Positions 3,851-64,000 of a DNA stretch of 64,000 nt are shown piece after piece. The stretch is from Hyphomicrobiales bacterium (GTDB lineage: Bacteria; Pseudomonadota; Alphaproteobacteria; Rhizobiales; Aestuariivirgaceae). The stretch covers positions 1 through 64,000 of the forward strand of contig JACPNZ010000001.1 in NCBI GenBank assembly GCA_016185245.1, read 5' to 3'. Position 1 is the stretch's first letter; each line of letters begins with the position of its first letter. The notes beneath the pieces were generated by a model. The model saw only the letters and a list, made by a program, of their open reading frames with translations. It was not told where the DNA came from and did not search any database. A program made the translations under genes and the position numbers.

Positions 3851-4791
3851 CCATGGGCGCGGTCGACGACATTCTCGAGCGCCAGACCCTGGCGGTAACG
3901 CTCGATCTGGCGGGCGACATAGGCGCAAATAACTTCAGGATCGCTGTCGGCGGCGACATGGGGCGTGACCGTCACCTTGGGATGGGTCCACAGTGGACTA
4001 TCGGGCGGCAATGGCTCGGCCTGGAAAACATCGAGGGTTGCGGCATGCAGGGCTCCCGACTCGAGGGCTGCCAGGATATCGGCCTCGACCTGCTGGCGGC
4101 CGCGCCCGGCATTGATTATGATGGGCGCTCCAAACGGACCCTGGTGCGACAGCTTGGAAATGGTCGCGGAATTGATGATGCCGTCGGTTTCGGGCGTTGC
4201 CGGCAGGAGCGAGACCAGGATGTCGGTGCGGGCCAGGAAGGCATCGAAGCCGGCGGCCCCGGCGAAACTTTCGATGCCCTCGATGTCCTTGCCTGTGCGG
4301 CTCCATCCCGCCACCCGGAAGCCGAGGTCGCGCAAGCGGCAGGCCGAATCCTGGCCCATGACTCCCAATCCCATGATGCCTACCGACATCTGGGTGGCGG
4401 CATGGGTGGGGAAGGAATCCCAGACCTTGCGGCGCTGATTGGCGTCGATACGGCGCTGCTGGCGGTGATGCAGCAGCACGTGCAGCACCACATATTCGGT
4501 CATGCGGCCGGTGAGATCGGGATCGTTGACCCGAACGATCGGCACGTTCTCCGGCAGGGTCGGGTCGTTCAGAATGGCATCGACGCCGGCACCGAGGGAG
4601 AACAGCACCTTGAGGTTCGGCAGGCCTCTGACGACGTTGGGCGGCGGCAGCCAGGCGGCGGCATAGTCGATGTCGGCGATATTGCCGAGGCCATCGGGCC
4701 AGGCACGGACATCCATGGCGGGCGCTGCCTGGCGCATGGCGCGCGCCCAGACTGCGACCGGCCAGGTCGGGAGAATGAACAGGAATGCCAT
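3844..4791 (-). CDS. ghrA: Glyoxylate/hydroxypyruvate reductase A family dehydrogenase
   Basis: A 315-residue NAD(P)H-dependent D-2-hydroxyacid dehydrogenase of the GhrA branch, which reduces glyoxylate to glycolate and hydroxypyruvate to glycerate. The nucleotide-binding motif GIMGLGVMG lies at residues 138-146. The catalytic trio typical of the family is visible: R230 in INAGRG, E259 in DVFQAEP and H278 in VTVTPHVA. The length matches E. coli GhrA (312). It starts 3 bases after the end position of the yejF gene on the same strand, so it may be the last gene of the yej transcript, although its role is unrelated. The substrate is inferred from family similarity only. Confidence 0.85.
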   Translation of the reverse strand: MAFLFILPTWPVAVWARAMRQAAPAMDVRAWPDGLGNIADIDYAAAWLPPPNVVRGLPNLKVLFSLGAGVDAILNDPTLPENVPIVRVNDPDLTGRMTEYVVLHVLLHHRQQRRIDANQRRKVWDSFPTHAATQMSVGIMGLGVMGQDSACRLRDLGFRVAGWSRTGKDIEGIESFAGAAGFDAFLARTDILVSLLPATPETDGIINSATISKLSHQGPFGAPIIINAGRGRQQVEADILAALESGALHAATLDVFQAEPLPPDSPLWTHPKVTVTPHVAADSDPEVICAYVARQIERYRQGLALENVVDRAHGY

Positions 4792-4793
4792 GG

Positions 4794-6422
4794 CTACTGC
4801 CTCACGACCGTCTCCGGTGCCGCCTTCAGATTGAGGGCGGCGGCAATGAGCGCCCGGGTGTACTCCGACTTGGGCGCAGCGAACACCTCCGCCGTGGGCC
4901 CCGCTTCGACCGCCACGCCGTTGCGCATGACAATCACCTCATTGGCGAGGGCGCGCACCACGCGCAGGTCATGGCTGATGAACAGGAAGGCGAGATTGTG
5001 CTTCTGCTGCAACCCGCGCAGCAGGTCGACGATCTGGGCCTGCACCGACATGTCGAGGGCCGAGGTGGGTTCGTCCAACATGATGAAGCGGGGATCGAGG
5101 GCGAGCGCCCGGGCGATGGCAATGCGCTGGCGCTGGCCGCCGGAGAATTCATGCGGATAGCGGTCCATCGATTGCGGGTCGAGCCCCACCTCCTCGAGGG
5201 CGGCGGCCACCCGGGCGCGCCGCTCTTCGAAACTCCGCCGCTTTGCCTGCACGACCAGCCCTTCCTCGACGATCTGCTGGATCGACAGGCGTGGCGACAG
5301 CGATCCGTAAGGGTCCTGGAAAACGATCTGCATGTCCTTGCGCAGGGGCCGCATGGCCTTGTTGTTGAACCCGTCGATTGGCTGCCCCATGTAGACGATG
5401 GGCCCGTCCGAGGGGATCAGGCGGAGGAGCGCCAGGCCGAGTGTGGTCTTGCCCGAACCCGATTCGCCCACCACGCCGAGGGTCTGTCCGGCGCGCACCA
5501 CGGCGTCGATGCCATCGACCGCCTTGATATGCCCGATGGTGCGGCGCAGGAAACCGCGCTTGATCGGAAACCATACCTTGAGGCCGCGGGTTTCCATCAC
5601 CACGGGGGCGGAGGGATCGGACTTGGGAGGAGTGCCCTTCGGCTCGGCCGACAGCAGCATCCGGGTGTAGGCGTGCTGGGGGGCTGCGAATACGTCTTCG
5701 GTTTCTCCCTGCTCGACGATATGGCCCTTCTGCATGATCGCCACCCGGTCGGCCATATGGCGCACGATGCCGAGGTCGTGGGTGATGAGCAGCATGGCCA
5801 TGCCGAATTCGGCCTGAAGATCCTTCAACAGCCTCAGGATCTGGGCCTGCACGGTTACATCGAGTGCCGTCGTCGGCTCGTCGGCGATCAGCAGGTTGGG
5901 GTTGTTGGCCAGCGCCATGGCGATCATCACCCGCTGGCGCTGGCCGCCGGACAACTGATGCGGAAAGTCGAGAAGGCGGGTTTCGGGATCGCGGATGCCG
6001 ACCTTGCCCAGAAGCTCGACGATGCGGGCCCGTGCCGCGCTGCCGGTCACGCCCTGGTGTATTTCGAGAATTTCGCCGATCTGGCGCTCGACCGTATGCA
6101 GAGGATTGAGCGAGGTCATCGGCTCCTGGAAGATCATGGTGATGTCGTTGCCGCGGACCTTGCGCAGTTCGTCCTCGCTGGCATGGAGCAACTCCTTGCC
6201 CTTGAAGGTGACCGAACCGGAAGGATGCGACGCCGCCGGATAGGGCAGGAGCTTGACGATCGACAGCGCCGTCACCGACTTGCCGGACCCCGATTCGCCG
6301 ACGAGCGCCAGAGTCTCGCCGTGGTCGATGGTGAAGGAGGCGCCGTCGACGGCGAGCATCTTGCCGGCACCCTGCCGGAAGGCGACGGAAAGGTCCTTCA
6401 CCTCGAGCAGCGCCTCGCTCAT
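4794..6422 (-). CDS. yejF: ABC transporter ATPase with two nucleotide-binding domains, YejF type
   Basis: A 542-residue cytoplasmic ATPase carrying two fused nucleotide-binding domains, as in YejF and GsiA. The first has Walker [13 protein letters not shown], signature LSGGQRQRV and Walker B LLIADEPT. The second repeats this order with [21 protein letters not shown] and FIMLDEPT. It powers the peptide importer formed with the two permeases and the binding proteins encoded upstream. The start is set at the ATG ending at 6422, which overlaps the yejE stop by 4 bases (ATGA), although the open frame continues further up inside yejE. Peptide specificity is inferred from the yej family. Confidence 0.92.
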
Positions 6423-23282: not shown

Positions 23283-23345
23283 GGGCGAATGGTGAGTGGC
23301 GAATGGGGAAGGGAGCGATTGCTTCCATTCGCCATTCGCCTCTTT
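23283..23345. repeat. Palindromic CGAATGG tract next to the long repeat
   Basis: ggcgaatggtgagtggcgaatgg is followed by cttccattcgccattcgcc, so the tract can fold into a long interrupted hairpin. Closely related units lie near 170-205, beside the other copy of the 154-bp repeat. Confidence 0.65.
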
Positions 23346-23359
23346 TCACTTTTCAAACA

Positions 23360-23513
23360 GCAGGCATAGCTCCGCCCTGGGTGGCGCCGGTTACTCCGGC
23401 CGCCGGGGGAAGAGGGCTCCACCTTAAGGGCGGAGGGGAGGCGCAGGCAGCGCTTCACCGCAGGGTAGTGGTAGGAACAAGCGGTTCTTCACCCCGCCTG
23501 CGCCGCGGATTTT
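23360..23513 (-). repeat. Long dispersed repeat, copy 2 (inverted relative to 1-154)
   Basis: Reverse complement of positions 1-154 with one mismatch. It fills the gap between the TerB gene and the SnoaL-like gene and ends 8 bases before the stop of the latter. The two copies face each other across about 23 kb. Confidence 0.92.
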
Positions 23514-35736: not shown

Positions 35737-35809
35737 CCTACTGGCTGGCCCATATGATGCGGGCCATCCAGTCGAGGTCCTTGGTGTCGAGGGTGCGGGC
35801 CGGGTGGTC
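35737..35809 (-). repeat. Copy of the 3' end of the S24 regulator gene
   Basis: Matches 36366-36438 in the same orientation over 73 bases with two mismatches. It contains the last ~23 codons and stop of the LexA-like gene, so it is a detached, untranslated duplicate. The two copies bracket the small membrane protein gene. Confidence 0.88.
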
Positions 35810-35836
35810 TGGTGGACGGACGCGAGTTCGGTGGGT

Positions 35837-36133
35837 CTAGCGGTTCTTGACGAAGCCGACGATGGCGGTGAGGATCGCGCCGCCGGCGCCGCTGGCAATC
35901 AGCTCCTTGATGATGGTGCCGATGTTGAGCCCGGAGGTTGCCGCTGCGGCAGCGTCGGGGGCTACCGCCACGCCGGTCAGGCGCTGGATGATCTGGGCGA
36001 GAATGACCCCGCCGATGGCGCCAGCGATCGAATTGCCGGTCGATCCCAGACTCTTGTCCTTGAGGACCGAGCCCACGGCGTTGCCGCCGACAGCGCCGGC
36101 AACGAGCTGAATGATCAGACTGACGATATCCAT
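35837..36133 (-). CDS. Small glycine-rich membrane protein
   Basis: A 98-residue protein with at least two hydrophobic, glycine- and alanine-rich segments: DIVSLIIQLVAGAVGGNAVG and GNSIAGAIGGVILAQIIQRL, and a third near the C-terminus (GAGGAILTAIVGFV). No catalytic residues are seen. Similar short proteins are common in Rhizobiales but have no known role. The gene lies between the detached copy of the S24 gene tail and the S24 gene itself, on the same strand, so it could have arrived by the same duplication or insertion event. Confidence 0.7.
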   Translation of the reverse strand: MDIVSLIIQLVAGAVGGNAVGSVLKDKSLGSTGNSIAGAIGGVILAQIIQRLTGVAVAPDAAAAATSGLNIGTIIKELIASGAGGAILTAIVGFVKNR

Positions 36134-36365
36134 GGCATTTCCTCTTCAATTGGCAGGCGTTGATGTTGTTGCTTGTATTTCCCCGCGTCGGACAGCGTAG
36201 GCGTCATGGCTGACAAATGAAAGACGCAAATGGCAGCGGGTTGCGACCGGACACGCTTCGTCCTCCGGCGCGGGGCCCGCTGCCTTCGGCAGCTCCCGCG
36301 CGTTCGAAGCCTTCCATCGCTCCACCGGAGCGATGGATTGGCTGACGCCAACCGGCTTCTCACCC
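36134..36365. other. Non-coding gap downstream of the S24 gene
   Basis: No supported gene. The stretch aagccttccatcgctccaccggagcgatgg near 36311 can form a small hairpin (catcgctcc/ggagcgatg) and may end transcription of the S24 gene. Confidence 0.4.
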
Positions 36366-36438
36366 CCTACTGGCTGGCCCAGATGATGCGGGCCATCCAG
36401 TCGAGGTCCTTGGTGTCGAGGGTGCGGACCGGGTGGTC
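36366..36438 (-). repeat. 3' end of the S24 regulator gene (source copy)
   Basis: Direct repeat partner of 35737-35809, forming the genuine C-terminal codons and stop of the S24 gene. Confidence 0.85.
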
Positions 36439-37002
36439 GGGGTTGAAGGAGGCGAGCTCGACGGTCTTGGCGGTCTGGCGCTGCATGACCTTGGCCATCA
36501 CCTGGCCGTCGCTGGTCTTGACCACCACCCGGTCGCCCTTGCGGATCGTCGCCGAGGGCGAGACGACGATGGTGTCGCCTTCGCGATAGACGGGCTGCAT
36601 CGAATCGCCGGTGATTTCGAGGGCATAGGCATTGAGGTCGGAGACGCCGGGTACGTCGATCTCCTCCCAGCCATTGCCGGAGGGGAAACCCGAATCGTCG
36701 AAATAGCCGCCCTTGCCGGCGCGGGCGAGGCCGAGAAGCGGAATCTGCCGGCGGCGCGGCGCCTGGCCCTTGCGGCCGATCAGGAGCTCGGCGAATTCCT
36801 CGACCGGAGCGCCGGCGGCATCGAGCACCCGGTTGATGCTCTCCATGGTCGGCCAGCGCGGCCGGTCATCGGGGCCGAAACGCTTCGACGGGTTGAAGGA
36901 AGTGGGATCGAGCCCGGCCTTCTTGGCCAGCCCAGACGCGGAAAATCCATAGCGCTCGGCTATCGTGTCGATGGCCGACCAGACCTGCTTGTGCGTGAAC
37001 AT
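36367..37002 (-). CDS. LexA/CI-like HTH regulator with S24 self-cleavage domain
   Basis: A 211-residue repressor. The N-terminal helix-turn-helix (about residues 5-75) includes YGFSASGLAKKAGLDPTSFN. The C-terminal S24 domain has the nucleophile S134 in GDSMQP and the general base K171 in VMAKV, spaced 37 residues as in LexA; a scissile A95-G96 bond is present in GLARAGKGG. RecA-stimulated autocleavage is therefore possible. It is divergent from DUF952-pyrD over 112 bases with two palindromes that could be its operators. Unlike prophage repressors it has no phage genes near it. Confidence 0.87.
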   Translation of the reverse strand: MFTHKQVWSAIDTIAERYGFSASGLAKKAGLDPTSFNPSKRFGPDDRPRWPTMESINRVLDAAGAPVEEFAELLIGRKGQAPRRRQIPLLGLARAGKGGYFDDSGFPSGNGWEEIDVPGVSDLNAYALEITGDSMQPVYREGDTIVVSPSATIRKGDRVVVKTSDGQVMAKVMQRQTAKTVELASFNPDHPVRTLDTKDLDWMARIIWASQ

Positions 37003-38541: not shown

Positions 38542-39389
38542 GCGTTGAACAGCTTCTCGGTGGCGCCGTCGCTCTGCAGCTTGTCGAGGGCGGCGTCGAA
38601 GGCCTGGCGCAGGTCCGGACGGTTGGCGCGCACCAGGAAGGCGAAGTTCCGGCTGAAGGTCGATGGATCGCTGTAGGCGCCAGGGAGTAGCTTGCAGCAG
38701 CCGCGCGAAGCTTCGCCCGCGACCCAGTAGATGAGGCGCAGGCCGTCGCCGAAGAGGGCATCGACATTGCCGGTGCGCAGCGCCTCCTGGGCCAGGCTGT
38801 CGCTGTCGAAGGCCACCAGCTTGGCTGCCCCGTAGTAGCGCTCGAGAAAGGCGCCATGGGTGGAGGCCTTCACAAAACCGATGCGCTTGCCGGCGAGCCC
38901 TGCGGCATCGCCGCTGGCGAGCGGGCTTCCCGACTGGCTGGCGAAGCGGGCAAGCGAGCGGAACCAGGGCCTGGTCATCAGCGCGTCGGAGAGCGCCGCC
39001 GCATCGATGCGGGGGCCGGCGACGATCATTTCTCCCTGACCTGCGGCGAGGGCCGGGAGAAGGTCGGAGAGCGGCATCAAGTTTACCGTGCACTCGGCCC
39101 GCAAGGTGGCGCAGGCCGAGGCCGCCAGATCGACGGCAAGCCCGGAGGGGGCGCCTGAGCGGGCGCGGAAGCTGAAGGGCGGAAAATCCTCATCGGCCAG
39201 GAGCCGCAGCGAGGTTCCAACCGGCAGGGTGGGGAGGCGGGGCTCGGCCTCGACCCGGCGGAAACGCGGCAGCGGATAATTCTGGGCCGCGAGGGTTTCG
39301 CTCGCAATCCAAAGTAGCCCCAACGTCAATAAAAACATCCGGAGGATGGTTGCCCACCGGCATCCCGCCGGTGTCAATATTTGACGCAT
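38517..39389 (-). CDS. Family 3 extracellular solute-binding protein
   Basis: A 290-residue periplasmic protein of the amino acid type (family 3). A signal peptide is present (FLLTLGLLWIASETLAA), then LRLLADEDFPPFSFRAR, GLAVDLAASACATL and the typical hinge KRIGFVKASTHGAFLE. No permease or ATPase gene is near, so it may serve a transporter encoded elsewhere or act as a sensor-like orphan. Two starts are possible: the ATG at 39389 given here, or MFLLTL at 39338, which gives a more compact signal. Confidence 0.8.
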   Translation of the reverse strand: MRQILTPAGCRWATILRMFLLTLGLLWIASETLAAQNYPLPRFRRVEAEPRLPTLPVGTSLRLLADEDFPPFSFRARSGAPSGLAVDLAASACATLRAECTVNLMPLSDLLPALAAGQGEMIVAGPRIDAAALSDALMTRPWFRSLARFASQSGSPLASGDAAGLAGKRIGFVKASTHGAFLERYYGAAKLVAFDSDSLAQEALRTGNVDALFGDGLRLIYWVAGEASRGCCKLLPGAYSDPSTFSRNFAFLVRANRPDLRQAFDAALDKLQSDGATEKLFNAYVPLNPW

Positions 39390-39418
39390 CGTTATTTTCC
39401 GCCGACCGAGAAGTGCAT

Positions 39419-41146
39419 GTGAGTCTCGCAGATTTCCATCGGGCATCCGGGTTTCTAGAGGCCCAGGATGTGGCCGGCATGATAGCCGGCGGTTTTCCGG
39501 AAGTCTTGCCCCGCGTCTCGGCGGCCTCCCTAGCGGAAGCGCTCCGCCGCCTGCCGCGCGACGAATTCGACCAGGCGCTACGCGACAAGATCGTGCCGCT
39601 GGTCAATCTGCCGGGCCTCAGCCTGCATGTGGCCTGTGGTGCGGCCGCCCGCAAGCTTGCCGACGACGAAGGCCTGAAACTGGTGGGCGAGGCCGAACTC
39701 GCGGATTTCCATCAGGCCCTGCGGGCGAGCCACGGCACGCTTCTGTTGCGCGACGCCACTTTTGGCCTGGTGCGCGCCGATCCAGACAAATCGGCCCGCC
39801 GGCGGCTGACGGGGGCACAGGGATTTGCCAGCCTGGCGATCTTGGGCCTTGCCGCCGGTCTCTGGCTGTTGCTGCCGGAGAAGGCCCTGTGGCTTATCGG
39901 CAGCCTGGTTGCAGCACTGTTCTTTCTGGCCGTGATCGCGTTGCGCCTGCTCTGTCTCCTGCCGCAGCCGGTCCGGCCGCGGCCGCTGCTCAGGCCCATC
40001 GAGGATGGGGAGCTTCCCGCCTATTCGGTGCTGGTGCCCTTGTTCCGCGAGATCTCGGTGTTGAACCAGCTGCTCACCGCGCTCGTCCACATCGACTATC
40101 CGGCCGAGAAGCTCGACATCAAGCTGATCCTGGAAGAAAGCGACATCGCCATGCGCCGCGCCGTGGCGGCGATCGAGCTGCCGGCGCAGTTCGAGGTGAT
40201 CGTGGTGCCGGGCGGCAGGCCCCAGACCAAGCCGCGGGCGCTCAACTACGGCCTGCGCTTTGCTCGCGGCGAACTTCTGACGATCTACGATGCCGAGGAT
40301 ATTCCCGAGCCCGGGCAATTGCGGCTGGCGGCCGAAACCTTCGCCGCCAGCTCCTCCGGCGTTGCCTGCCTGCAGGCCGAGCTTGCCTTCTACAACCCCA
40401 ACGAAAACTGGCTGACCCGGCAATTCACCATCGAATATGCAACGCTGTTCGGCCTGCTCCTGCCGACGCTGGCCGGCTACGGCCTGCCGCTGCCCTTGGG
40501 CGGCACGTCGAACCATTTCCGGGTGGCGGCACTGCGCCGGGTGGGGGCCTGGGATCCGTTCAACGTGACCGAGGACGCCGATCTGGGCTTGCGGCTGGCG
40601 CGGGCGGGCTATGGGACACTCACCATCGACAGCCGCACCTATGAGGAAGCAACCGTCAGGCCGGGCAATTGGCTTCAGCAGCGGGCCCGCTGGCTGAAGG
40701 GCTTTCTGATCACCTGGCTCGTCCACATGCGAGCCCCGCGGCGGCTTGCGGCGGAGCTCGGGCCGTCGGGGTTCTGGGCTTCCCAGGCCTTGACGATCGG
40801 CATCTTCGGTTCGGCGCTGTTGCATCCCCTCTGCATGGGAGCGACGGTCGCTCTCTTCATTGTCGAACCGACACTGCCGGCCGATGCCGGGTTTCCGACG
40901 ATTGCTTTGGCCGGTCTCAATCTGATGGTGCTGGTGACGGGCTATGGCGCCACCATGCTGGCGGGAGTGAAGGCGCTGCGCCGCCTCCGTATCAGGGGCT
41001 GGATTCTGCCGATCCTGTCGACGCCCCTCTACTGGCTGCTAATCTCGGTCGCGGCCTGGCTGGCGCTGTGGCAGTTCCTGACCGATCCCTATTACTGGAA
41101 CAAGACCGAGCACGGACTTTCCAGCCTGCAGAAGCGGCGGGGGTGA
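39419..41146 (+). CDS. Membrane glycosyltransferase, family 2 (cellulose synthase-like)
   Basis: A 575-residue processive-type glycosyltransferase. An N-terminal region (about 1-110) resembles the GspE/MshEN-like domain. Two membrane segments follow, then the GT-A domain: LVPLFREISVLNQLL, TIYDAEDIPEPGQL (metal-binding D-x-D), TEDADLGLRLA and QQRARW (the QxxRW motif). Four more hydrophobic segments close the protein. It should transfer sugars from UDP- or GDP-donors to a polymer crossing the membrane; the polymer is unknown. The start is doubtful: GTG at 39419 is given, but GTG 39413 or an earlier TTG (39350) are in frame; the earlier ones would overlap the divergent gene. Confidence 0.85.
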   Translation: MSLADFHRASGFLEAQDVAGMIAGGFPEVLPRVSAASLAEALRRLPRDEFDQALRDKIVPLVNLPGLSLHVACGAAARKLADDEGLKLVGEAELADFHQALRASHGTLLLRDATFGLVRADPDKSARRRLTGAQGFASLAILGLAAGLWLLLPEKALWLIGSLVAALFFLAVIALRLLCLLPQPVRPRPLLRPIEDGELPAYSVLVPLFREISVLNQLLTALVHIDYPAEKLDIKLILEESDIAMRRAVAAIELPAQFEVIVVPGGRPQTKPRALNYGLRFARGELLTIYDAEDIPEPGQLRLAAETFAASSSGVACLQAELAFYNPNENWLTRQFTIEYATLFGLLLPTLAGYGLPLPLGGTSNHFRVAALRRVGAWDPFNVTEDADLGLRLARAGYGTLTIDSRTYEEATVRPGNWLQQRARWLKGFLITWLVHMRAPRRLAAELGPSGFWASQALTIGIFGSALLHPLCMGATVALFIVEPTLPADAGFPTIALAGLNLMVLVTGYGATMLAGVKALRRLRIRGWILPILSTPLYWLLISVAAWLALWQFLTDPYYWNKTEHGLSSLQKRRG

Positions 41147-41153
41147 AGCTCGG

Positions 41154-41417
41154 GGCACCTCGCGCACCGCTCCCCGCGCCGCACTGGTGGCCAAGGCGGC
41201 ATCGGCCCGGAGGGCTGCGCGGCTTGCACGCGAGCAGTAAATTGATAATACCCTTTCGATATCCCTTAGCTCATAGCGGATAATCCGACGCTCCGGTTTG
41301 GGAGCATGAACCACGTCTTCCACCACATCGCCGATGGCAAGTCGCTTTGTCTGGAATGGCCCCGTAGCCGGACATGGAGCCGACAGGCCAGAACCGACGA
41401 GGTTGACCCATTCCGGA
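41154..41417 (-). repeat. ilvD-tail repeat, copy A
   Basis: Matches copy B (43528-43795) in the same orientation along most of its length; a 39-base stretch (41293-41331 and 43667-43705) is identical. On the minus strand its end reads [19 protein letters not shown], nearly the C-terminus of IlvD ([19 protein letters not shown]). The other half, not related to ilvD, reads RIIRYELRDIE in the same frame. Confidence 0.85.
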
Positions 41418-41504
41418 CATCAGATCACTTGGCGAGCATTGCGTTCCTTTTGCCTTTGGCGCGCCTGAAAGGCGTTTTGAGCGACATTGGGCAATTGGGT
41501 TCTA
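41418..41504. other. Left boundary of the accessory segment
   Basis: Short non-coding stretch between repeat A and the stop codon of the TPR/transmembrane gene. Base composition shifts here from GC-rich to clearly more AT-rich. No gene is seen. Confidence 0.5.
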
Positions 41505-43193
41505 TTACTTATTGGGAGCTCCTAACTTGATATGGTCTGCTGGGGAGTAGCTGGGGTAGTTCGAAGCAGACCCATCCGGCGGAACAGGGCCTCGCTGATA
41601 AAAGTCGCGAATGGTCAAAACAGAAAGTGCTGATTTTAAATTCTTGGTTAGAGATTGGAACGCCCCAAGTCGCTCAATATCCTTCTGGAGTTCATATCTC
41701 GTTGTGGTATTTTCATTGTCGGCCAATAACTGATAGGATAATGTCCCGTAGACCCATGCAAGGACGAGTCCGAGAGGCGTGCCGAGGACAGCCACACCCA
41801 TGAGGCCGGCAATTATGTTGAACAAGGGAACAGACTTTGCCGCAGAATAACTCCAGAAGAATATGGGAACTGCGCAAATAAGACACGCAATCGCTTTTAC
41901 TTGATCATCTCTTTCTTGATTTGCAAAGTCGCTTGGTCTTTTCAATCTGATGGTCCGCTCGGCCAAGGCTTTGAACTTTTGCTCCTTGGATGCGGACGAA
42001 TTGAAAAATTCTGTAACTCGTTCTGCGTTGCGGCTAAGCGCCTCTTTTGTCGAATCGTGAACAAGTCTTTGCGTTACATAGTCTGGCGCTTTGTCCGAAT
42101 TGTCCAATATTCCAACAATACGCTCTAAATCAGCCAATATTTTGAAATTGACCCCTCCGGTAGACGGCGAACTCGACTTGAAAAAGCCCTGTTGTATTTC
42201 TTCTGGCACATCGAAAAAAGTAGCTACGTTTGCGAAGCCTTGGTCAAGCAAGTTTGCGATGGTCTTAGCCACAATATTTCTAGTGGCTCTATTGAATTGC
42301 AAAAGCGATTGGGAACGGCTCTCAAAAAACTCTTGCATCCCCAGTATACCATTAACGGGAATGGAATCTTTACATTTGAAAAAATAGCTCACGTCTGCTT
42401 CTTCGCAGATTTCTACAAGCTCCAGACAATCGTTGACTTGTCCCTTCGTGGCAAAGAGTTCGGCCGCAAGGAAGACCGCACCAATATTTCGTGGGTCAGT
42501 TTTTAGGGCTAACAGGGCAAAATTTAGTGCGTCATCTGTCCTATCCTGAAGATTGCAAATCACACCTTGCCAATACTGTGATGATGAGCAGTAATATTTG
42601 CTATCTGGTTTGGCGTAACGTGCGGCATTTGCAAATGCCTCAAAAGCGCCAACACTGTCACCTTTCTGCTCGGCGAGGAGAATGCCCATCAAATACCGCG
42701 CGATGTAGTTGAATTTATCAAGTTCAACCACCTTCATGAAATCTTCGAGCGCCTCTTCGTGCCAGCCGTTTTTCAATGAGGATGAAGCCCGGCGCGCAAA
42801 TTCAAGTGATTGAGTTTTGGTGGGGTTGGCGAGAAGGTCTGTCATTCTCTCAAGCTCGGTATTAGTGATATCGAGGCTGGCTGCCAGGGTATCAAACCCG
42901 ACGTCAAGGACGTCTCTGATCTTGTAGAGACGATCCTCAATCGAACCCATAGTGCCGCTTATTTGTTGAAGTTCAGAAACCTGTATGTCAGCTGACGCCG
43001 CCACTCGTTCTATGCCCTTGAACAAAGCGGGTTCCGCTCCTTTGTAAAAAGTGAGACTCGCGTTCCTGAGATCGGCCAACGAGGCGTTGGCCGTTGATAG
43101 CTCATCTAGAACATTGAGGGTGGTGTAATAGTATCCACGGCTCCATTCGCGCCGGCGCTGCGCCGATTCTAAGAATAAGTTGCGTTCCGCCAT
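41505..43193 (-). CDS. TPR protein with two C-terminal membrane helices, uncharacterised
   Basis: A 562-residue protein that I cannot assign to a named family. Residues 1-110 are helical and coiled-coil-like (LFKGIERVAASADIQVSELQ). TPR-like repeats follow from about 127: RRASSSLKNGWHEEALEDFM, NYIARYLMGILLAEQKGDSV and ALNFALLALKTDPRNIGAVF. Two membrane helices cover about 433-452 and 457-490, then a cytoplasmic-looking tail of about 70 residues. The coding sequence is visibly richer in A and T than its neighbours. The ATG at 43193 is preceded by GAGG. It lies between two ilvD-tail repeats, so horizontal gain is likely. The layout of a helical sensor plus membrane anchor is compatible with a defence or stress effector, but that is a guess. 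Confidence 0.8.
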   Translation of the reverse strand: MAERNLFLESAQRRREWSRGYYYTTLNVLDELSTANASLADLRNASLTFYKGAEPALFKGIERVAASADIQVSELQQISGTMGSIEDRLYKIRDVLDVGFDTLAASLDITNTELERMTDLLANPTKTQSLEFARRASSSLKNGWHEEALEDFMKVVELDKFNYIARYLMGILLAEQKGDSVGAFEAFANAARYAKPDSKYYCSSSQYWQGVICNLQDRTDDALNFALLALKTDPRNIGAVFLAAELFATKGQVNDCLELVEICEEADVSYFFKCKDSIPVNGILGMQEFFESRSQSLLQFNRATRNIVAKTIANLLDQGFANVATFFDVPEEIQQGFFKSSSPSTGGVNFKILADLERIVGILDNSDKAPDYVTQRLVHDSTKEALSRNAERVTEFFNSSASKEQKFKALAERTIRLKRPSDFANQERDDQVKAIACLICAVPIFFWSYSAAKSVPLFNIIAGLMGVAVLGTPLGLVLAWVYGTLSYQLLADNENTTTRYELQKDIERLGAFQSLTKNLKSALSVLTIRDFYQRGPVPPDGSASNYPSYSPADHIKLGAPNK

Positions 43194-43420
43194 TTCCCTC
43201 AACGTCCTGCAAGTGCAACCTTCGAACCATCATGTCTCAATTTTGAAGTTTGGTACAGAACCTATATTCATAGTTTCAAAACTGTGTTTGTCGCTGACAG
43301 GCACACAAACACAACACAATGGGTTCTCCCGTTAGCTGCCCTGACCGGCTTTTTCTGAACCAGGCGATGCGAGAACACGTCCTCCGTCTGGCTGTTCAAA
43401 CGCGTTGCGAATGGCCGCTC
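43194..43420. other. AT-rich upstream region of the TPR gene
   Basis: The first ~120 bases upstream of the TPR gene are AT-rich (for example gtttcaaaactgtg), plausibly holding its promoter. From about 43320 the sequence returns to GC-rich intergenic-repeat character leading into repeat B. No gene supported. Confidence 0.45.
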
Positions 43421-43797
43421 CTGGCCCTTCTGCGACATGGTCCGGGACGCGGATGAAGTCTGCTTTCCCCTCGTCGGCAGACGTCCTTGCGTTGCCCGGG
43501 TGGTGCCAGCTGCGAGTTCACATCTACGGCACTTCGCGGACCGCACCTCTTGCCGTACTGGTGGCCAAGGCGGCATCGGCCCGGAAGGCTGCGCGGCGTG
43601 CACGGGACCAGTAAATTGATGATGCCCCTTCGATATCCCTTAGCTCATAGCGGATGATCCGAGACACCGGTTTGGGAGCATGAACCACGTCTTCCACCAC
43701 ATCGCGGATGGCAAGTCACTTGGTCCGCAATAGCCCCGAAATCGGACATGGAGCCGACAGGCCGGGACCGACGAGGTTGACCCAAGCCGGAAATTCA
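43421..43797 (-). repeat. ilvD-tail repeat, copy B (composite)
   Basis: The part 43421-43590 matches 44899-45068, that is, the last codons of ilvD plus about 105 bases of its downstream flank; it keeps an in-frame [19 protein letters not shown] and stop. The part 43528-43795 matches repeat A. B is thus the link between A and the true ilvD end. Confidence 0.85.
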
Positions 43798-44188
43798 GCC
43801 CGATAGACTCCTCACCGGGCCACCAATGTAATCTCGCAGCTGCGACTTTCCTAAGCGACGCTTCTAAGCAATTGCGACGGCAGTAAGTATGAGCACGCGG
43901 TTCGCTTGGCCGAGTTCAAAGACCCGTCTCGCGGCTTAACCCCGCCGGATATCAACAACCACCGGTACATTCGGGGCGCGGCGTTTGCCGCCCAAGTTGC
44001 TCCACTGGGGCGATTTGCCAGCCTCGCCGTCACTTCTCACCTCCCACCTTTCCCATTGCTTCGCGATGGGCCCTGTATTCTCCCGCAAGCGGAGAGGCAG
44101 AGCTAGACTCTCGCGGTTGAAACTCTCATACTCACTTGCTCATCGGGGGCGCATTATCGTCAACCTCGCTTACTCATGGAGAATCACC
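43798..44188. other. Non-coding region before the DUF1326 gene
   Basis: No supported gene. It includes a copy of the palindromic element found elsewhere in the window, about 44041-44100 (cccattgcttcgcgatgggccc followed by ctcccgcaagcggag). Short open frames here lack similarity and typical codon use. Confidence 0.5.
44041..44100. repeat. TTGCTTCGC palindromic intergenic repeat
   Basis: Contains cccat, tgcttcgcg, atggg (hairpin) and a second stem tctcccgcaagcggaga. Related copies are near 46969-47116 and 63879-63945. Confidence 0.65.
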
Positions 44189-44803
44189 ATGGCGCAATGG
44201 AAGATCGCCGGCCAGTATATGGAATCGTGCAATTGCGCTTTTCTGTGCCCGTGCAACACGTCAAATCTCGCCGCACGCCCGACCGAAGGTGACTGCAAGG
44301 CGGCGATCGCCATGCAGATCGAGCGCGGCGAAAAGGATGGCGTCAAGCTCGATGGCCTCTCCTTCATCGTGCTGATGCGCTCACCTGGCCCGATGATCGA
44401 GGGAAAGATCAAAGTCGGGCTGATCGTTGATGAAAAGGCGGACGGCGCCCAAACCGAGGCGATCGTCGCTATTGCCTCAGGCGCAGTGGGCGGGCCAATG
44501 GCCAATCTTGCTCCTCTGGTCTCGGAAGTGGCCGGCGTGGAAAAGCGGCCGATCAGCTTCAGCGCCAAGGGGATGAACTTCAAGGTCAAGGCTGGCGAAT
44601 TGGTCGATCAGGAAATCGAGGGCGTGCCTAGCATGATCGACGCCAATCAGCCGGTCTATATCGACAATACTGGGCATCCAGCCAATAAGCGCCTGGCGCT
44701 CGCCAAAGCGATCGTCAGTGTTTTCAATGGGTTTGGGATCGCGTGGAAAGATCGCACCGGCACCCGCAACGGTCACTTCGCGCCTTTTTCTTGGAGCAGT
44801 TGA
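44189..44803 (+). CDS. DUF1326 family protein
   Basis: A 204-residue cytosolic protein of the DUF1326 family. The hallmark cysteine-rich opening is complete: YMESCNCAFLCPCNTSN, with three or four Cys that could bind metal. Later segments (EVAGVEKRPISFSAKGMNFK, YIDNTGHPANKRLALAKA) fit the family, which often occurs beside DUF2182 membrane proteins; none is present here. Function is unknown. The ATG at 44189 follows ggagaatcacc, a good ribosome site. The gene lies between ilvD-tail repeats B and C. Confidence 0.83.
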   Translation: MAQWKIAGQYMESCNCAFLCPCNTSNLAARPTEGDCKAAIAMQIERGEKDGVKLDGLSFIVLMRSPGPMIEGKIKVGLIVDEKADGAQTEAIVAIASGAVGGPMANLAPLVSEVAGVEKRPISFSAKGMNFKVKAGELVDQEIEGVPSMIDANQPVYIDNTGHPANKRLALAKAIVSVFNGFGIAWKDRTGTRNGHFAPFSWSS

Positions 44804-44898
44804 AAGGAGAATTTCGCCGGAATGACGGGATTCTCCCTTTCCCCGGTTTGCACGCCGGTTCGGAAGGTACAGTAAAGATAACAGTCTGATGTCGCCTT

Positions 44899-45068
44899 CT
44901 GGCCCTTCTGCGACATGGCCCGGGACGCGGATGAAGTCTGCTTGCCCCTTGCCAGCAGACGTCCTTGCGTTGCCCGGGTAATGCCAGTCTGCCAGCTCAC
45001 ATCCTACGGCACCTCGCGGACTGCGCCGCGGGCGGCACTAGTGGCGAAGGCGGCGTAGGCGCGGAGTG
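44899..45068 (-). repeat. ilvD 3' end and flank (copy C)
   Basis: Source or sister of the duplicated segment in B. It includes the last ~20 codons and stop of ilvD and about 105 bases downstream. The flank reads MSQKGQ in one frame, a motif class known from dispersed rhizobial repeats. Confidence 0.8.
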
Positions 45069-46848
45069 CGGTGGTCACATTGCGCTTGCGCTTCTCGGCG
45101 GGCTTCCAGGCATTCTTTCCCTTGGCTTCCTCAGCCGTACGGCGGCGGGCGAGTTCGGGCTCGGCGACGGCGAGGTGGATCGTCCGGTTAGGAATGTCGA
45201 TCTCGATCCGGTCGCCGGTTTCAACGAGACCGATCAAGCCCCCCTGTTCGGCCTCGGGCGAGACATGGCCGATCGACAGACCCGATGTGCCGCCGGAGAA
45301 GCGGCCGTCGGTGACCAGGGCACAGACCCTTCCGAGGCCCTTCGATTTGATGTAGCTCGTCGGATAGAGCATTTCCTGCATGCCGGGTCCGCCGCGCGGG
45401 CCCTCGTAGCGAATGACCACCACAGCGCCCGCCTTCACTTTGCCGTTGAGGATGCCAACGACGGCGCTGTCCTGGCTTTCGAAGACGATTGCCGGGCCGG
45501 AAAATTTGAGGATCGAGTCATCCACACCGGCGGTCTTCACGATGCAGCCGTCGAGCGCCAGATTGCCCTTGAGCACGGCAAGGCCGCCATCCTTGGAGAA
45601 AGGATGGGCGGCATCGCGAATGACACCCTTGGCCCGGTCGAGGTCGAGCTCGTTGAAACGCTTGGACTGGCTGAAGGCCACTTGCGTCGGCACACCACCC
45701 GGAGCGGCGAGATAGAACTGGCGCACTGATTCGCTGTTGCTGCGCCCGATATCCCAGCGGTCGAGCGCCTTGGCCATGGTGGCCGAGTGGACGGTCGGCA
45801 GGTCGCGGTTGATGAGGCCCGCCCGGTCGAGCTCGCCCAGGATCGCCATGATGCCGCCGGCCCGGTGCACGTCTTCCATGTGCACGTCCGACTTGGCCGG
45901 GGCGACCTTGCACAGGACCGGCACGCGCCGCGACAGCCGGTCGATGTCGGCCATGGTGAAGTCGATCTCGCCCTCATGGGCGGCGGCGAGAATGTGCAGC
46001 ACCGTGTTGGTCGAACCGCCCATGGCGATATCGAGCGTCATGGCGTTCTCGAAGGCGCCGAAGCTTGCGACCTTGCGGGGCAGCACGGTTTCGTCGTCCT
46101 GCTCGTAATAGCGCTTGGCGATATCGACGATCAGGTGGCCGGCTTCGAGGAACAGGCGCTTGCGGTCGGCGTGGGTGGCAAGGGTCGAGCCATTGCCGGG
46201 CAGCGACAGGCCCAGCGCCTCGGTCAGGCAGTTCATCGAATTCGCCGTGAACATGCCGGAGCAGGAGCCGCAGGTGGGGCAGGCGTTCTGCTCGTATTTC
46301 TTGACGTCGGCCTCGGAGACGCTGTCATCGGCGGCGGCGACCATGGCGTCGATCAGGTCGACGGCCTTCACTTCGCCGGTCGCGAGCACCACCTTGCCCG
46401 CTTCCATCGGCCCGCCGGAGACGAAGACCGAGGGGACGTTGAGACGGAGCGAGGCCATCAGCATGCCGGGGGTGATCTTGTCGCAGTTGGAAATGCACAC
46501 CATGGCGTCGGCGCAATGGGCGTTGACCATGTATTCGACACTGTCGGCGATCACTTCGCGCGAGGGTAGCGAATAGAGCATGCCGTCATGGCCCATGGCG
46601 ATGCCGTCATCGACGGCAATGGTGTTGAACTCCTTGGCCACCCCGCCGGCCGCCTCGATCTCGCGGGCCACCATCTGGCCCAGATCCTTCAGATGCACGT
46701 GGCCGGGGACGAACTGGGTGAAAGAGTTGACGACGGCGATGATCGGCTTGCCGAAGTCGCCGTCCTTCATGCCGGTGGCGCGCCACAGTCCGCGGGCGCC
46801 GGCCATGTTGCGGCCATGGGTGGTGGTGCGGGAGCGATAGGCGGGCAT
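45004..46848 (-). CDS. ilvD: Dihydroxy-acid dehydratase
   Basis: A 614-residue iron-sulphur enzyme of valine, leucine and isoleucine synthesis that dehydrates 2,3-dihydroxy acids. The cluster cysteines are in [11 protein letters not shown] and [19 protein letters not shown], and the active-site block [19 protein letters not shown] is intact. The start [20 protein letters not shown] is canonical. The C-terminal ~20 codons occur again in degraded form in repeats A and B downstream. Confidence 0.96.
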
Positions 46849-47137
46849 GGGAACCTCGCAAGGGTTGCTGTCGTGGCTAATTCCCTAGCGAATGCGTGGG
46901 GCGAGGCCAAGTTCAAAACGAACAGGGCTGGCATGAGCCGTGTTGGGGCTGGTGGACGACGCGGACTGCCCCTCTCCCCTTGCCGGGAGAGGGGGCCCAT
47001 TGCGAAGCAACGGGAGGGTGAGGGGACCCGAAGTCAATGGCTTGCGCCCGGCCCCCTCATCTTCCCACGCCTTCGGCGCGGGCCCCTTCTTCTCCCGCAA
47101 GGGGAGAAGAGGAAGTAGTGCCGTGCTGCCGCTATGC
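46849..47137. other. Intergenic gap with two palindromic repeats
   Basis: No gene. The right half (46969-47116) is filled by two oppositely oriented copies of the TTGCTTCGC/GGGCCC element. About 46860-46968 is ordinary sequence that should hold the ilvD promoter. Confidence 0.6.
46969..47116. repeat. Paired palindromic intergenic repeats
   Basis: Hairpin 1 at 46969-46994 has a 10-bp perfect stem (cccctctccc/gggagagggg) with a 6-base loop. Hairpin 2 at 47089-47109 has stem cttctccc/gggagaag. Between them are gggcccattgcgaagcaacgg and its inverse-type relative cacgccttcggcgcgggccc. It could end transcription from both sides (ilvD promoter side and the oxidoreductase 3' end). Confidence 0.75.
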
Positions 47138-63835: not shown

Positions 63836-64000
63836 GCGGTGGCTGCGGAAGGGCCGTTGCGTTAGCTAGCTTGCAGCCGACCCCCTCATCCTCCCACCGC
63901 TTCGCGGCGGGGCCCCTCCTTTTCCCCGTGGGAGAAGGGAAGATTGCCTCGCGCAAGTCGCGGTCCGTACCTTGCATCTCCTCAAGCAAAGGTTAATCCT
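63836..64000. repeat. 3' flank of sdhB with palindromic repeat
   Basis: 63879-63945 contains gaccccctcatcctcccac, gcttcgcggcggggcccct and ttttccccgtgggagaag, another copy of the TTCGC/GGGCCC element. It probably ends the sdh message. No gene is seen up to the window edge. Confidence 0.6.

Follow-up and report, generated by a model that had tools for sequence, protein, structure and literature searches.

How did three copies of one gene end come to stand in a row at ilvD, the gene for dihydroxy-acid dehydratase, in a member of the alphaproteobacterial family Aestuariivirgaceae? The locus lies in a stretch of 64,000 nucleotides (nt), called the window throughout (Hyphomicrobiales bacterium, assembly GCA_016185245.1, contig JACPNZ010000001.1, positions 1 to 64,000), on a contig of 102,012 bases (C56) in a 3.5 Mb assembly of 58 contigs. 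A first-pass annotation of this DNA had noticed that the last ~20 codons of ilvD recur twice downstream, with a gene between successive copies, and had proposed stacked integrations at the 3' end of ilvD. Our analyses favour the view that two related circular DNA units inserted serially, each by a single crossover inside that 3' end, a reading to which we give a probability of about 0.58. The earlier proposal is partly supported: two features unused at that time, the order of the repeated arms and a divergence between the tail ends that is almost wholly synonymous, both fit it, but a tyrosine recombinase on the contig, an empty site and a sibling element were looked for and not found.

Anatomy of the ilvD array

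Along the minus strand the locus reads ilvD with its own end (tail C), an arm D, a DUF1326 gene on the opposite strand, an arm X, tail B, a second D, a gene with weak tetratricopeptide repeats (TPR), a second X, tail A and a convergent glycosyltransferase gene (Table 1). Comparison of the window with itself confirmed the ilvD tails at A and B, placed all three copies in one orientation and bore out the described layout, with the DUF1326 gene between C and B and the TPR gene between B and A. A and B have 267 nt in common, comprising tail and X (41154-41420 and 43528-43794, 88% identity, E 5e-93); B and C have 170 nt, comprising tail and D (43418-43585 and 44896-45065, 85%, E 2e-47); and A and C have the tail alone, 62 nt (41154-41215 and 45008-45069, 81%, E 7e-9). 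D follows tails C and B only and X precedes tails B and A only, such that direct repeats including the ilvD 3' end bound both units and the middle junction B is chimeric, flanked by an X and a D. The units measure ~1.5 or 2.4 kb and have one main gene each. The block unrelated to ilvD that the first-pass annotation saw in A and B is X, which spans ~205 nt rather than ~190, precedes the tail and is 88% identical between the units. The ~110-nt block D, common to B and C and unreported until now, begins at the stop codon; the unit 1 copy aligns with 43418-43523 (stop-codon bases included) at the cost of 10 mismatches and 2 one-base gaps.

The layout can be derived as follows. Each unit would have carried the last ~20 codons of an ilvD gene between arms X and D, and a circle bearing X-tail-D that crossed over in the ilvD tail would give ilvD - tail - D - cargo - X - tail, restoring a complete ilvD and displacing the old tail. 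The first to enter would have been unit 2, with the TPR gene, and the tail native to the host would thereby have become A, beside the glycosyltransferase gene. Unit 1, with the DUF1326 gene, would have entered second through the restored tail, producing the present tail C and the hybrid junction B, of which X and the upper tail would come from unit 1 and D from unit 2. A second insertion at a restored tail gives exactly the layout observed, with B as hybrid junction, and a composite repeat copied about would not alone confine D to the places after the first two tails and X to those before the last two. In this scheme we infer the circular intermediates, the order of events, the empty site and a site-specific recombinase, which may have acted in trans or since been lost.

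Table 1. Features of the ilvD array and its flanks (positions in the window)
Feature	Position	Strand	Basis
Full-length ilvD for dihydroxy-acid dehydratase (614 aa), ending in tail C (last codons, 45004-45069)	45004..46848	-	NCBIfam, Pfam
Left arm D of unit 1, adjoining the ilvD stop	44896..45003	-	alignment to 43418-43523
Unit 1 cargo, DUF1326 protein, 204 aa, 58% G+C	44189..44803	+	PF07040, 169.9 bits
X of unit 1, right arm, with scrap resembling an IS5-type transposase start	43590..43799	-	88% to unit 2 X over 205 nt; weak translation match to IS5-type starts
Tail B, stop TAG, hybrid middle junction X-tail-D	43524..43589	-	alignment
D of unit 2, left arm	43418..43523	-	alignment
Unit 2 cargo, 565 aa, weak TPR repeats, membrane stretch (by inspection), 47% G+C	41505..43202	-	TPR_16, TPR_17 below cut-off
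X of unit 2, right arm	41216..41424	-	alignment
Tail A, stop lost (CGA), outermost; putative former native ilvD end	41154..41215	-	alignment
Glycosyltransferase, far-side flank of array, stop 7 nt from tail A	39350..41146	+	Pfam PF13632/PF13641

Mosaic tails and their codon pattern

The tails are mosaics. Across the upper 33 nt a single base separates A from B, against 6 and 7 differences of A and B from C. Across the terminal 29 nt, made up of nine codons plus two bases (43528-43556 in tail B), the differences number 7 for A/B, 6 for A/C and 8 for B/C. For A and B this is a rise from 1/33 to 7/29 within a single tail (Fisher P 0.02). Nine columns of the 29-nt patch vary, seven of them at third codon positions (hypergeometric P 0.0007), and protein-altering changes among the changed codons of the nine complete patch codons come to 1/6 for A/B, 0/6 for A/C and 1/6 for B/C; the 25 A/B differences outside the patch are spread evenly over the codon positions (9/9/7). 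Such nearly all-synonymous change suggests that each tail end was once a working ilvD end: all three look as if they had been selected as IlvD protein before being set aside. The best same-genus match to the patch is 24/29 for A, 22/29 for B and 24/29 for C, and hence divergence among the three ends is comparable to that of ilvD ends from different species.

A control for decay is provided by the displaced tail of an S24-family repressor gene in a sister species (G034, described below), in which 7 of 9 changed codons are nonsynonymous, different from the ilvD tails at Fisher P 0.007 (A/C) and 0.04 (A/B and B/C). The copies had been described as decayed with the stop codon kept. Decay applies to part of the tail only, given the nearly synonymous divergence of the last 29 bases, and of the two copies only B retains its stop (TAG); A ends in GTG CCC CGA where a same-genus genome (G013) has CCC TGA at the same place.

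Debris in the arms and possible local duplication

Arms X and D appear to be, in part, old mobile debris. The end of X reads RRIIRYELRDIE, resembling the start of IS5-family transposases, and its translated scrap matches a locus with a PF13340 match (L177; 37.5% identity over 48 aa, E 1e-5), a second locus (L002; 57.9% over 19 aa, E 0.17) and two plasmid genes annotated as IS5 transposase (E 0.04 and 0.1). Weak scraps like D occur at three loci (L160, E 9e-5; L122, E 0.001; L149, E 0.004). At the last of these, in genome G016, D-like (137-205) and X-like (1823-1939) scraps flank a DUF1326 gene in the order and orientation of unit 1, each match being weak, and a DUF2182-like frame accompanies that gene (by eye). 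X is a ~205-nt fragment without a full transposase frame, not one of two flanking insertion sequence copies, and a composite transposon was rejected.

This debris keeps alive the strongest competing explanation, and with it homologous insertion. An IS5-type element that interrupted an ilvD copy close to its end would have produced X-tail-D, pieces of which were duplicated locally, cargo arriving by recombination between the copies. The transposase scrap in X, the D-like scraps elsewhere, the presence of the whole composite in B with parts in A and C, and the S24 tail copy of the window (91.6% over 95 nt), which looks like a local duplication, all speak for it. A dead local tail would be expected to change randomly, however, and the last 29 bases changed almost only synonymously; the jump in A/B divergence inside the tail also speaks against it, and a full X-tail-D, or a sibling element, was found nowhere else among 61 relatives and 397 genomes of the order (in the latter set at the two top-ranking candidate places of each). 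We regard such duplication as a serious contender that is nonetheless clearly the less probable account.

Scattering of the A/B sequence over unlinked loci, which would have favoured the spread of a composite repeat suggested as an alternative by the first-pass annotation, was not seen in the genomes searched; that alternative keeps some standing through the IS5-type scrap in X. In its own genome the 401-nt B block returned A, B, C and one 68-nt scrap of X on another contig (C21), with 11 of 47 candidate places scored. Beyond these, the 61 genomes held only 58 nt at the ilvD end of one relative (G017) and 27 nt in another (G031), and when the two top-ranking candidate places in each of 396 other genomes from the order were scored, 5 genomes had matches, of 36-58 nt. 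With three copies in its own genome, all at this locus, and one 68-nt scrap, a dispersed repeat family was also rejected. B DNA had no match in plasmids, and the ilvD tail peptide had none in phages.

Possible homologous insertion or assembly artefact

Foreign linear or plasmid DNA might also have entered ilvD by homologous recombination, in the manner of a Campbell insertion with no site-specific system, each donor bringing its own ilvD end and the gene behind it. Tail ends that diverge to roughly the degree seen between species (best same-genus match 24/29 for A and C and 22/29 for B, with A and C 6 positions apart), crossovers seemingly not at one fixed point and a contig free of tyrosine recombinases would all suit this. 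Against this, the homology is only ~62 nt long with sharp ends common to two events, and X and D occur in both units, from which it follows that the donors were of one element type and not random ilvD neighbours; on balance we think this route improbable. A chance or assembly artefact is highly improbable even for an unfinished assembly of 58 contigs, given E-values of 5e-93 and 2e-47 and copies that differ by 12-19% and therefore are not assembly duplicates.

Integron cassettes were rejected as well: four junction stretches showed no attC-like fold (z -1.4 to +1.5, about as in shuffled sequence), and PF00589 was matched on other contigs only.

Evidence against serial insertion

Several results weigh against serial insertion by circular units, to which we now return. 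Behind ilvD, a tail repeat was found in 0/20 same-genus loci with 0.5-19.7 kb of downstream sequence, where two matches, one of 15 nt and the other of a peptide at 33% identity, were taken as chance. In a wider set of 101 ilvD loci (76 with at least 3 kb downstream), 21 had matches of 15-45 nt anywhere, and the 5 matches that were downstream and on the same strand (15-35 nt) were taken as chance. No ilvD adjoins the glycosyltransferase gene in 29 same-genus loci (flanks at most ~1.5 kb), and no empty site was found because there is no close relative.

The machinery is also missing from view. The first-pass annotation had seen no integrase, and this holds for the contig with respect to PF00589, in a search that did not extend to serine recombinases: the genome encodes six proteins matching PF00589, and all lie on contigs other than C56. 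Among the PF00589 matches listed for the genus, only one shares a contig with an ilvD orthologue, ~760 kb away (G027:C1). An integrase model built from 35 proteins gave one match over 102 ilvD loci (L046), discounted since we read the frame as an acetyl-CoA carboxylase subunit, and none over 40 longer stretches that included same-genus ilvD ends. Neither cargo gene is an integration or transfer gene according to a Pfam scan of these two genes (smaller open reading frames, ORFs, were not scanned).

The patch itself presents a further difficulty. With one fixed crossover point, the patch should have travelled with one arm and should share the age of that arm. Instead it is more diverged than D (8/29 vs 10/109 as entered, P 0.02) and than X (7/29 vs 24/205, P 0.08), and one fixed crossover point is therefore insufficient. 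Three explanations offer themselves: crossover points that varied, as they would in homologous recombination; units that took fresh tails from one host after another; or samples too small to judge by, counts being small throughout. Loss of constraint in the upper tail of A and B rests on little, since a single residue (Tyr to Asp) departs from the 21 same-genus ilvD ends used (a further row does not reach the end). The second change, Phe to Leu, also occurs in that normal set. The observations do not separate insertion by an integrase from homologous insertion, and local duplication keeps a lower but real probability.

Cargo and flanking genes

The ilvD gene is complete despite the adjoining array, its 614-aa product scoring 1162 bits against NF009103 (positions 1-611/616) and 811 bits against TIGR00110, with the Pfam domains ILVD_EDD_N and ILV_EDD_C. 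The nearest ilvD protein is 86% identical, and ilvD groups with 12 same-genus rows at a Shimodaira–Hasegawa-like approximate likelihood ratio (SH-aLRT) of 86, the tool's mark being 95; with this moderate tree support, ilvD itself looks native.

Relatives of the DUF1326 protein (PF07040) occur in 6 of the 37 genus genomes, its own included; genus relatives are 33-42% identical, and at the genus loci examined none was seen in the first 1.5 kb downstream of ilvD. Its own genome has two more distant paralogues. The protein matches 116 plasmid records, the best relative (63.5%) being in Polaromonas pPNAP04 beside a DUF2182 gene; no DUF2182 frame was seen (by eye) beside the DUF1326 gene of the window. 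The TPR gene has 47% G+C in a window of 64% and is present in 1 of the 37 genus genomes, its own only, both of which we count in favour of insertion, and no genus relative was found to hold the same two genes without tail repeats. Among 397 genomes of the order, 9 others match the TPR protein over short stretches at 26-44% identity; it had no match in plasmids, and a structure predicted from the single sequence (mean predicted local distance difference test score, pLDDT, 37.5) was not used. Neither cargo gene matched the defence or phage protein libraries, and in viral contigs TPR and DUF1326 gave 10 and 7 pattern matches, none confirmed. On the far side of the array, a substrate-binding gene adjoins the glycosyltransferase gene in 27/29 same-genus loci, and pyrD is reached in 20.

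A second repeated gene tail and a scan for others

The window contains another gene with a repeated end. An S24-family repressor gene (PF00717, 36367-37002, minus strand) has its 3' end repeated at 35737-35830, 91.6% identical over 95 nt with 2 mismatches in the last 73 and the stop kept, and one 98-codon ORF, with no match in plasmids, stands between. The layout of tail, gene and tail (35737-37002) is the same as at ilvD. The S24 gene occurs in 33/37 genus genomes, and 29 orthologous loci from other genomes were read 0.2-1.5 kb downstream, 20 genomes also over 2.0-19.2 kb. Only the sister species G034 (L252, 2067-3263) has a displaced S24 tail, which lies ~1.06 kb downstream and is 85% identical over 74 nt; the one ORF in between, convergent and 298 codons long, is beta-helix-like by inspection; two other loci gave only 20-nt opposite-strand and 12-residue matches. 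Because the copy in the window is so similar to the gene, a recent local duplication seems as likely as insertion there.

Repeated gene tails were then sought without bias towards ilvD, on a sample rather than on whole genomes and alongside a mirrored 5' control. In the own genome, 61 stretches (691 kb) yielded 4 tail matches (ilvD twice, S24 and 3853-5160) against 3 mirrored ones, one of them the B/C pair. The match at 3853-5160 seems, on our reading, to be antisense to paralogous ABC-transporter sequence and was rejected, leaving 3 accepted against 2, and the accepted matches all lie inside this window. In the genus (22 stretches, 300 kb) the counts were 0 and 0, and in named genomes (80 loci, 1.31 Mb) one weak tail match (L031, 67% over 257 nt) stood against none. 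The ORF filter was changed after a first run had missed S24 (own genome 3 vs 3, genus 0 vs 0, named genomes 1 vs 1); the full G034 locus L252 was not in the scan, and L279, at the same place, begins inside the gene and went uncounted. Gene-tail repeats show no clear excess over the mirrored control, which also tells against serial insertion, and so no genome-wide mechanism is shown.

Two further repeats were noted in the window: near-identical inverted copies of 180 nt (95.6%) at 1-180 and 23334-23513, with no Rfam match there, and a 77-nt intergenic repeat (78%) at 47040-47115 and 63869-63942, perhaps a repetitive extragenic palindromic (REP)-like element.

Comparison with known systems

The known kind that the array most resembles would be that of cis-mobilizable elements (CIMEs) and of tandem accretion among elements of the integrative and conjugative (ICE) or integrative and mobilizable (IME) type. 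CIMEs are described as units that carry no integration genes but retain the end sites on both sides once integrated, and accretion as the entry of a new unit into the end site of a resident, giving a chimeric middle site, with a gene 3' end as target (PMC5704250). The ilvD array is alike in its end repeats that include a gene 3' end, its intact target gene, its chimeric middle site and its two cargo genes, neither of them an integration gene; it is unlike CIMEs, ICEs and IMEs in its units of ~1.5 or 2.4 kb with one main gene, in showing no trace of transfer genes and in its alphaproteobacterial ilvD target.

In Thaumarchaeota, integrated elements are described in the 3'-distal parts of protein genes, one of them in a dihydroxy-acid dehydratase gene (PMC6563490). 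The target enzyme family and the gene end are the same as here, but those elements are archaeal and verified by empty sites, whereas the ilvD array is known without one. Salmonella genomic island 1 (SGI1) forms tandem arrays at the 3' end of thdF/trmE (PMC5704250, PMC8409611) and encodes its own Int and Xis (PMC4605294). Both cases appear to show serial occupation of one protein-gene 3' end, and the SGI1 arrays differ in repeating one element that has its own Int and Xis. Xanthomonas carries a chromosomal integron beside ilvD (PMC2246292), and both loci thus have cassette-like single genes next to ilvD; the array described here departs from that integron in having no attC-like fold in its junction stretches and no PF00589 on its contig. 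In the literature searched for ilvD with integration site and genomic island, there was no report of ilvD as an integration site or genomic island target.

More speculatively, and we think with little probability, units of this kind could be minimal one-gene mobile elements, with arms of ~110 and ~240 nt around a copied gene tail, any cargo, a recombinase in trans, a tail patch renewed from the ilvD of each host and the S24 repressor gene as a second target.

If two units did insert serially, ilvD would be added to the protein genes at which elements dock in bacteria. The way in which codons change in a displaced tail would then offer a simple means of separating serial integration, which leaves synonymous differences brought from other working genes, from local duplication, which leaves random decay. 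Cargo would have been exchanged between fixed arms with no integrase in sight, raising the question of how such small units move.

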